Of a DNA stretch of 20,138 nt, positions 8,819 through 10,301 are shown one piece after another; position 1 is the first letter of the stretch; each line of letters begins with the position of its first letter. The DNA comes from a virus, in IMG/VR virus record IMGVR_UViG_3300025889_001221, positions 1 to 20,138 of that record; one strand, written 5' to 3'. The position numbers and the translations under genes were made by a program. The notes beneath the pieces were generated by a model. That model saw only the letters and a list, made by a program, of their open reading frames with translations. It was not told the origin of the DNA and made no database searches.

Positions 8819-9106
8819 TTACTCGCTTCTTTTCCACTTGTTTTCGATTGATCGACGCGCGGCCACGGCCAAGGTTGCACACACCATCTTCCCTAGTTCG
8901 GCCATCGCGGTTTTTTTATCGTCCGGGTGACAGGCGTACATCGCAGCAACCATGCCGATGATGTCGGCAGGGCTGTCTGCAAGGAGCTCGATGCGGCCCT
9001 CTTCGTCTACCCAGTCACTAATGAGCTTCGCCTGTTCGTCACGGGTCAGGCGGTCCCAGTTTCCACGTCCTTCTTTCTGAACCTTGCGTGCCATTGCTTC
9101 CCACAT
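8819..9106 (-). CDS. Hypothetical 95-aa phage protein
   Basis: A mostly helical 95-aa protein: a basic N-terminus (ARKVQKEGRGNWDRLTRDEQ), an acidic middle (DWVDEEGRIELLADSPAD), then a moderately hydrophobic helix (IIGMVAAMYACHPDDKKTAM) too short and interrupted to be a clear TM segment, and a basic end. GGAGG precedes the ATG at good spacing, and the stop of the 34-aa peptide overlaps the ribosome-binding region. It is the second gene of the leftward operon driven from the promoter at 9239-9266. No family is recognised. Confidence 0.68.
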   Translation of the reverse strand: MWEAMARKVQKEGRGNWDRLTRDEQAKLISDWVDEEGRIELLADSPADIIGMVAAMYACHPDDKKTAMAELGKMVCATLAVAARRSIENKWKRSE

Positions 9107-9238: not shown

Positions 9239-9266
9239 ATCCTACCAGCACGAGACCCTGCGTCAA
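9239..9266 (-). promoter_or_regulatory. Leftward sigma70-type promoter
   Basis: On the minus strand: -35 TTGACG (9261-9266), a 16-base spacer, and -10 TAGGAT (9239-9244). Transcription would start near 9231-9233 and read the 34-aa peptide and the whole leftward operon. The -35 matches 5 of 6 and the -10 matches 4 of 6 consensus bases. It faces away from the rightward promoter at 9458. Confidence 0.6.
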
Positions 9267-9310
9267 GCCCTATTTCTGTTCCAATGGTGACAACTTGAGC
9301 AGAGGGACAG

Positions 9311-9324
9311 GAAGTAATTACTTC
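9311..9324. promoter_or_regulatory. Perfect 14-bp palindrome, probable operator
   Basis: GAAGTAATTACTTC is a perfect 14-bp dyad between the divergent promoters. Its A/T-rich centre and half-site size suit a dimeric HTH repressor such as the product of the gene at 9493. No second exact copy was noticed in this region. The bound protein is unknown. Confidence 0.5.
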
Positions 9325-9336
9325 TTGTGCCGACAA

Positions 9337-9358
9337 TCACGGGTTCGCTAACCCGTGA
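9337..9358. repeat. Perfect inverted repeat, 9-bp arms with 4-nt loop
   Basis: TCACGGGTT, loop CGCT, AACCCGTGA. It lies in the divergent control region between the 14-bp palindrome and the AGGGACG array. It has no T-run on the plus strand, so it is not a classical terminator. It could be an operator or an RNA/DNA hairpin. Confidence 0.6.
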
Positions 9359-9361
9359 AAC

Positions 9362-9453
9362 AGGGACGGCAAGGGACGCATCTTCACTTATCGGCGTATA
9401 CGCGCGTGCACATGTGTACGTCTATAAAGCAAAGTCCGTCCCTCAGCGTCCCT
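9362..9453. repeat. Symmetric array of four AGGGACG boxes (operator or origin-like)
   Basis: Two direct copies of AGGGACG (9362-9368 and 9372-9378) and two inverted copies CGTCCCT (9437-9443 and 9447-9453). Within each pair the copies start 10 bp apart, one helical turn. Both pairs stand 15 bp from a central 28-bp alternating tract, so the array is mirror-arranged about 9407.5. An imperfect extra copy (AGGGACA) lies at 9303-9309. The right pair ends four bases before the -35 of the rightward promoter. The pattern suggests cooperative protein binding, perhaps with looping. Confidence 0.72.
9394..9421. other. 28-bp strictly alternating purine-pyrimidine tract (Z-DNA-prone)
   Basis: Every base from 9394 to 9421 alternates purine and pyrimidine. 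It contains nested palindromes CGTATACG (9395-9402), ACGCGCGT (9400-9407) and CACATGTG (9409-9416). Such tracts, especially with CG and CA/TG steps, can take the Z form under negative supercoiling. It sits at the exact centre of the four-box array. Confidence 0.65.
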
Positions 9454-9457
9454 GCTA

Positions 9458-9486
9458 TTGACCAGATGGTAGGATGCTGCTATAAA
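9458..9486 (+). promoter_or_regulatory. Strong rightward sigma70-type promoter, giving a leaderless mRNA
   Basis: TTGACC (9458-9463), a 17-base spacer, TATAAA (9481-9486). The start point expected 6-7 bases later falls on or beside the ATG at 9493, so the transcript would have no leader, as for lambda cI from PRM. Inverted AGGGACG boxes are centred at about -43 and -53, positions from which a bound regulator could contact RNA polymerase. Confidence 0.78.
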
Positions 9487-9492
9487 GCACCC

Positions 9493-9672
9493 ATGAGCAT
9501 GACCGAAAAAGCTAGAAAGTACGTTCACTCCCTGCGGGGAGAGTGGCCTAGACTCTGTTCGGAGACCGGGCTTAGTTACCACTGGATATGCAAGTTCGCC
9601 CAGGGGGTAATCAAGAACCCCTCGGCGGCCTTCGTGGAGAAACTTCAGAAACATGAAAAACGCACATCCTGA
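9493..9672 (+). CDS. Small HTH regulator (Cro/CI-like), leaderless
   Basis: A 59-aa protein. Residues about 19-45 (WPRLCSETGLSYHWICKFAQ, then GVIKNPSAAF) read as a helix-turn-helix of the small phage repressor/Cro type: a helix, the Gly-Leu-Ser turn, a recognition helix, and an Asn-Pro-Ser loop before the last helix. It has no Shine-Dalgarno and its ATG lies at the predicted transcription start, so it is probably translated from a leaderless mRNA; a second in-frame ATG is at 9499. It is the first gene of the rightward early operon and the best candidate to bind the palindromes upstream. Whether it acts as repressor or Cro-like switch cannot be told. Confidence 0.74.
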   Translation: MSMTEKARKYVHSLRGEWPRLCSETGLSYHWICKFAQGVIKNPSAAFVEKLQKHEKRTS

Positions 9673-9751
9673 GCTGGAGGGCATCATCATGGGAACCGTC
9701 ATTGGATTAATCCTTTGGGGCCTTATCATCACGATAGGGGCTGCGCTATGA
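9653..9751 (+). CDS. 32-aa single-TM peptide in early operon
   Basis: The peptide MKNAHPELEGIIMGTVIGLI continues LWGLIITIGAAL. Residues about 11-32 form one hydrophobic helix. It overlaps the end of the HTH gene by 20 bases and its stop overlaps the ATG of the next gene (ATGA). The overlap chain and clean TM profile support translation. An in-frame ATG at 9689 is a possible shorter start. The function is unknown. It mirrors the other TM microprotein at 9108-9212 that begins the opposite operon. Confidence 0.55.
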   Translation: MKNAHPELEGIIMGTVIGLILWGLIITIGAAL

Positions 9752-9945
9752 CCCAGCGGGAAAAGGTCCTGAAAGCCCTTCTGAGGGGCCAGAAGCTTAC
9801 TCCCTTGGAAGCCATTAACCGAGGTATGGGCCTGCGCCTTGGGAGCCATATACACGCTCTCCGTAAGGCAGGACACGACATCCGCTCTGAGCTTGTCCAG
9901 AAAGGAAATGCGAGAGTTTCAAAATACTGGTTGCACATCGCTTGA
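9748..9945 (+). CDS. Winged-helix/HTH_39-like DNA-binding protein
   Basis: A 65-aa protein starting at the ATG at 9748, coupled to the preceding peptide by ATGA. The sequence VLKALLRGQKLTPLEAINRG, then LGSHIHALRKAGHDIRSELV, then ARVSKYWLHIA matches the helix-turn-helix domain (HTH_39-like) found in small phage proteins: 'LTPLdAl...g..RLaaRIheLR..GhdI...', followed by a beta wing ending in Y.L. The frame is open from 9715, but the upstream part lies inside another gene and is unlikely to be used. It is probably a regulator or recombination accessory DNA-binding protein. An 8-bp hairpin (TACTGGTT, 12-nt loop, AACCAGTA, 9925-9952) spans its stop codon. Confidence 0.72.
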   Translation: MTQREKVLKALLRGQKLTPLEAINRGMGLRLGSHIHALRKAGHDIRSELVQKGNARVSKYWLHIA

Positions 9946-10301
9946 ACCAGTAATATTCTGAACATCGGCCTAGCTTAGCTGGCGAAGAGAGGACCTCGAC
10001 TACCCTCCTGGCCGATTCCCTTCTTAGTCGTTGGTCTCTAGTCAGGGCCAGCCAAACCCCGACTCGTACTCCGCACGTTAGCAGGTGCGCGCTTGTCGCA
10101 GCTCGGAAGTAAAGCAAGCAAACCAAAATAGAGTGGAGCACGGTCCCACCCTGACCGCCACGACGGTGACGAGCCAGTACCCCAGGCTTGCCCGATACGG
10201 AACGATTACCGGCAGAGCTTTTTAGCTTTGTTCGACAGTAAGGCTAGGAGAAATAAGCCTTAAGACCTGTCACCGGAAAATGGGTGGGGTGTCTTTAAAA
10301 T
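9946..10301 (+). ncRNA. Gene-free region, probable structured leader or ncRNA
   Basis: There is no convincing gene on either strand in 356 bases. Complementary segments on the plus strand include: ATCGGCC/GGCCGAT (9964-9970 with 10010-10016); GTCAGGG/CCCTGAC (10041-10047 with 10149-10155); CGCAC/GTGCG (10072-10076 with 10085-10089); an AGCT hairpin with a TTTT loop (10214-10229); and a long hairpin GACAG+TAAGGCT/AGCCTTA+CTGTC (10234-10271, with a 4-nt bulge). CCCACCC (10145-10151) can also pair with GGGTGGG (10282-10288), just upstream of the ATG at 10302, and this excludes the 10041/10149 pairing. It does not match tmRNA, RNase P RNA, 6S or SRP RNA as I know them. A cis-acting leader, a small RNA or a replication origin are all possible. 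Confidence 0.42.

Follow-up and report, generated by a model that had tools for sequence, protein, structure and literature searches.

Phage P4 carries ori and crr iterons. The alpha protein of this phage has been discussed together with AEP primase/SF3 helicases, and in the same paper, pRN1 is described as needing a stem-loop of approximately 100 bp located 3′ of its primase-helicase gene (ORF904), while similar stem-loop origins are suggested for phages such as BIP-1 (PMC4234260). According to another report, the D5/DUF927-type initiator helicases of SaPI and SCCmec (Cch2) bind to repeats lying downstream of the genes that encode them (PMC7581432). Moreover, an ectopic lambda ori blocks lambda growth (PMC4488673), and the blocking of phage growth by ectopic phage origins is described as the PER phenotype (PMC8965321). 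Related origins of the stem-loop or iteron kind that lie 3′ of such genes are already known or proposed (pRN1, SaPI, SCCmec); an alternating purine-pyrimidine core is not among the reported features found in the accessible parts of these sources. Likewise, no description of an alternating core in D5-type origins was found in the literature searched, which lay mostly outside subscription papers.

The window, i.e., the whole stretch of 20,138 nucleotides of viral DNA analyzed here, contains such a core between boxes (Table 1). The letters of the window confirmed that the 28 bases of the tract alternate without a break, as the preliminary description had reported. The second-longest alternating run in the window was 11, and the tract was thus more than twice as long as any other. 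In Markov simulations of the window (200 each), the longest run was 23 for order-1 and 18 for order-3, and approximately 1e-5 runs of at least 28 were expected per window, which places the tract far beyond chance. The three 8-bp palindromes said to overlap within it were all present (9395-9402, 9400-9407, and 9409-9416), but overlap was found only between the first two, and the first was nested in a 10-bp palindrome (9394-9403). The position at the center of the symmetric boxes was also borne out, as the four boxes and the tract have an identical center with an offset of 0 bp. The self-complementarity of the tract was 57%, and the 41-nt arms of the symmetric element were just 71% complementary. 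When folded as single-stranded DNA, 176 nt around the tract formed three successive hairpins (z -5.3).

Table 1. Coordinates of the features discussed, given for the window unless another record is named
Feature	Position	Strand	Remarks
Alternating purine-pyrimidine tract GCGTATACGCGCGTGCACATGTGTACGT	9394-9421	.	28 bp, center 9407.5
TTATC	9388-9392	+	left of tract, opposite TATAA at 9423-9427
Symmetric element	9361-9454	.	~60-bp core between two box pairs in opposite orientation
AGGGAC box 1	9362-9367	+	
AGGGAC box 2	9372-9377	+	10 bp from box 1
AGGGAC box 3 (GTCCCT on +)	9438-9443	-	
AGGGAC box 4 (GTCCCT on +)	9448-9453	-	10 bp from box 3
Outlying AGGGAC box	9303-9308	+	within first hairpin
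First hairpin GGGACAGGAAGTAA/TTACTTCTTGTGCC	9304-9331	.	ahead of symmetric element
Second hairpin TCACGGGTTcgctAACCCGTGA	9337-9358	.	ahead of symmetric element
Insert/replacement	9298-9457	.	~160 bp; carries tract and boxes
Promoter-like TTGACC-17-TATAAA	9458-9486	+	abuts insert; TTGAC retained in relatives
Leftward promoter-like TTGACG-16-TAGGAT	9239-9266	-	
59-aa protein	9493-9672	+	weak match to phage repressors (phrog_6223); putative HTH protein
Winged-helix protein	9748-9942		
95-aa protein, function not assigned	8819-9106	-	heads leftward genes
Candidate origin core, Bordetella phage BPP-1	26652-26665 (L242 653-666)		~500 bp beyond bbp29 end

Several other element classes were considered. 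A protelomerase (telN-type) telomere site was rejected since it needs a perfect central palindrome, and a REP/MITE was rejected because the element is present as a single copy in the window record, the minus-strand match being its own hairpin. An integron attC (by eye) and a tRNA were unsupported, and an Rfam search of the array gave no match.

To find the same architecture elsewhere, paired GGGAC boxes in inverted orientation were scanned for with the core unconstrained, and a stricter version was used for genomes. The scans gave 45 viral contigs and 14 genome contigs. The D5-type arrangement, namely, inverted boxes phased by approximately 10 bp around a core of approximately 55–70 bp, was found in the window array. 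An unusually long alternating run was present in 14 of 49 distinct cores (p<0.05 vs mononucleotide shuffles), and 13 of those 14 runs lay within 6 bp of the core center. TAT/ATA near the tract was also found in many, not all, of the other cores. Some scan matches proved to be hairpins of other kinds, among them long GGGAC-rich hairpins from a Chlamydiae MAG and from other viral contigs. Three of these long hairpins (L145, L154, and L156) were on separate contigs of that one MAG and possibly form a repeat family. Furthermore, Rhodobacteraceae arrays (L143, L147, L148, and L152) had a non-alternating core with inverted TATCCNCCGTATA-like arms, and two contigs from one assembly each had a copy.

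Many of the arrays were accompanied by replication genes. A D5 primase-helicase gene lay at most approximately 200 bp from the array or overlapped it at 19 of 30 inspected loci, with the array at the 3′ end of the gene, whereas no D5 gene was found nearby at any of 75 ERF control loci. When proteins near the arrays were clustered, a single family joined by blastp, in which a few members were linked weakly, extended over 21 of the 30 loci. D5_N and DUF5906 domains are present in its members, in many cases along with a Prim-Pol domain, and the family matches TIGR01613 (P4 family). In the case of eight further arrays from viruses or genomes searched at record level, a D5 match was obtained for L119, L128, L111, and L153; the records of L129, L136, L137, and L116 had no D5 match and also no centered alternating core. 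All arrays with a centered significant alternating core, except that of the window, had a D5 gene adjoining or in the record. The two hairpins ahead of the symmetric element were not found at other D5 loci when their exact stem motifs were searched.

A DNA packaging site (cos/pac) could also produce a recurrent array, and a large terminase-like gene was indeed found within 0.6–1.5 kb at 6 of the 30 array loci. However, D5 genes were closer and more frequent neighbors, the signal was present in a set chosen by D5 without reference to terminase, and the window array is approximately 7.5 kb from its own terminase gene. Packaging was accordingly given hardly any chance as an explanation.

The set chosen by protein comprised 80 loci selected by D5 alignment, of which 350 bp downstream were inspected. 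An alternating run of at least 11 was found in 41 of 73 D5 downstream regions, as compared with 8.4% of 1304 control windows. In a second test, the loci were collapsed to 29 clusters, and the center was set by arm complementarity alone with the core excluded. Strong palindromes were found in 11 of 29 D5 clusters vs 16 of 442 controls, and an alternating core was present in 8 of the 11 strong D5 palindromes vs 5 of 442 controls. Coding DNA is contained in some of the controls. Downstream regions that lacked an alternating core included those of phiBT1, Celaena, RcCronus, and Methanoculleus virus. The named isolates with an alternating core were BPP-1/BIP-1, Eileen, and AmM-1; in BPP-1/BIP-1, a 14-bp tract is located between GTTTGCCTCG-type boxes phased by 10 bp.

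The preliminary description had proposed comparing alternation with exact sequence among related phages. All three carriers of the window element are near-identical contigs. The comparison was made with origin-like elements elsewhere, in which alternation was kept and the letters were not. By eye, the box letters vary among elements (GTGACAC, ATGACGC, CGGTCAT, AAGGGATGCG, and others), and the core letters range from (AT)n to CG-rich. The identity between the window tract and GC-type tracts was 0.776, while shuffles that keep the alternation gave 0.772 ± 0.011. The conserved feature of the cores is alternation, not letters.

Alternation of this kind raises Z-DNA or cruciform formation as the shared function of the core. 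A rough energy model with approximate constants put the B-Z midpoint of the window tract at -sigma of approximately 0.046; this value and the strong single-strand folding described above are favorable to such a function. In the same rough model, however, cores of the (AT)n type, which occur in AT-rich phages, need -sigma of 0.069–0.074. Since AT-only cores would need approximately 0.07, Z-DNA could not be the common denominator. On the modeled energies, it is therefore doubtful that the cores have Z-DNA formation as their common function, and the Z-DNA or cruciform reading as a whole was considered unlikely.

The element was then compared with relatives, which were collected with the 59-aa protein and aligned across the insert site. 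A wider search with an HTH alignment returned the same eight contigs. Besides the window, the insert was found only in the near-identical contigs L003 and L004. It had no counterpart in L005–L010, where approximately 17–20 bp are present instead (longer in L010), and both flanks aligned well in the relatives. No target-site duplication was visible at the insert ends in this alignment, and blastn of GenBank phages and plasmids gave no relatives. No close donor of the insert was found. Exact 16-/19-mer matches of the insert in viral contigs beyond the near-identical ones were taken as chance; those in L018/L019 were apparently within coding sequence, and others, e.g., in L012/L014/L017, were in unrelated sequence.

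The preliminary description had regarded the boxes as the operator array of an early switch. Under an operator reading, a phage regulator (either the winged-helix protein or the HTH-like protein of 59 aa) would bind the boxes, and the tract would be a bend between bound dimers. The insert does abut the -35 of the early promoter, relatives carry short palindromes at the same place, and the 59-aa protein weakly matches phage repressors. However, boxes are missing at this site in L005, although its HTH-like protein is 100% identical to that of the window, and they are likewise missing in five further relatives, whose HTH-like protein is 77–93% identical. Because L005 combines the identical protein with zero boxes, the boxes are unlikely to be operators of the 59-aa protein. 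Moreover, the architecture elsewhere lies 3′ of primase-helicase genes (P4-family/D5) and accompanies replication genes. The operator claim was therefore not supported: the neighboring repressor-like gene probably does not have its operator in this array, and operator function in general was considered improbable.

Other observations were made around the insert. In L006–L010, the short palindromes that replace it co-vary and stand directly before the -35 (TCAAG-CATCA-CTTGA; GTAAG-CATCA-CTTAC). A 9-mer, ATCCTACCA/TGGTAGGAT, is inverted in both divergent promoter-like regions (9239-9247 and 9467-9475). As the insert is located between leftward and rightward promoter-like sites, neither would be expected to transcribe it. 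The -10 TATAAA (9481-9495 region) is very near the ATG at 9493, so the mRNA of the 59-aa gene may be leaderless. In the case of the int-alpA RNA (RF02996), the match at 9963-10030 of the window scored 32.0 bits, slightly below the gathering score of 35.8, while that in the relative L006 (3843-3910) scored 36.5 bits and was over it. On the minus strand of the window, 5535-6353 holds two long overlapping ORFs, one of which resembles a DNA cytosine methyltransferase by eye.

No D5 gene was found in the window record (G000) or the near-identical genome (G001), the latter searched with a 12-protein profile and PF08706 while positive controls matched; such profile searches are blind to an unrecognizable initiator. 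The ends of G001 have 131 bp in common with 1 mismatch, and the window crosses that junction; thus, the genome of approximately 35.6 kb is probably circular and complete. Among the small genes of its early region are ERF and a fragment similar to a portion of an O-like initiator. A D5-type element together with the lack of a detectable D5 gene points to a D5-type origin lacking its own initiator, and a phage without such an enzyme seems to have acquired the origin of another element. Judging from sequence comparison, the tract and boxes are quite likely derived from a D5-type origin, and the locus is probably an orphan origin of this type that was captured. The orphan case is one phage lineage.

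By analogy with the described systems, we infer origin activity, box binding, melting, capture, and use as a decoy or by hijacking as follows. The tract would form the center of an origin-like element such as those that adjoin primase-helicase genes of the P4-family/D5 (SF3) group, in which initiator boxes about one helical turn apart, in inverted arrays, flank a core of approximately 60 bp. A D5 initiator would bind the boxes through its C-terminal DNA-binding region, and two helicase assemblies would load head to head. The alternating, pyrimidine-purine-rich center would be an easily deformed or melted hinge between the helicase assemblies. The element may have come as a replacement of approximately 160 bp next to the early promoter of a phage in which no D5 gene was found. 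There, an initiator encoded by a different element of the same host could use it in trans, or it could be a decoy for that initiator or a relic. The last case, i.e., an origin-derived element that is inert or captured by chance and has no present function, is possible although somewhat unlikely. The presence of the element in one near-identical lineage only and its absence from six relatives, which evidently get by without it, are consistent with a relic, while the intact box pairs, symmetry, and uninterrupted 28-bp alternation argue against long decay; a recent capture would look alike. A broader proposal is offered tentatively, namely, that orphan D5-type origins in phages are replicated by, or titrate, an initiator that a competing prophage or satellite encodes within the same cell, and that D5-type origins generally use an alternation-conserved core as an opening hinge.

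If the origin reading holds, the sequence rule of an alternating core between phased inverted boxes would locate the origins of a very widespread primase-helicase family, BPP-1 included. Moreover, how SF3/D5 initiators open DNA would become testable at named sites, and the orphan copy hints that phages may steal origins from one another or use them as decoys.

Compared with known systems, the origin-like elements resemble that of pRN1, where a self-complementary element of approximately 100 bp is located just 3′ of the primase-helicase gene and double-hexamer assembly at the stem-loop has been proposed; unlike the window, pRN1 is described without iterons and with its initiator in cis, and an alternating core is unmentioned in the accessible text (PMC4234260). 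As the candidate core of BIP-1 is approximately 500 bp from the gene end, it may differ from the stem-loop drawn in that paper. SaPI and SCCmec are similar in that short repeats follow the gene of a self-loading initiator helicase and are bound by the C-terminal domain of the initiator, but their initiator is present in cis, and the accessible text does not mention an alternating core (PMC7581432). Phage P4 alpha has the same family name (TIGR01613, P4 family) as the D5 genes found here, and its repeats are bound by a winged helix, whereas it differs in the type of its primase domain; this likeness is by family name. Lastly, in the ectopic-origin cases, the replication of a phage is disturbed when its origin is present at another location. 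Those cases involved laboratory plasmids and the cognate origin, whereas the window would hold a natural orphan origin.
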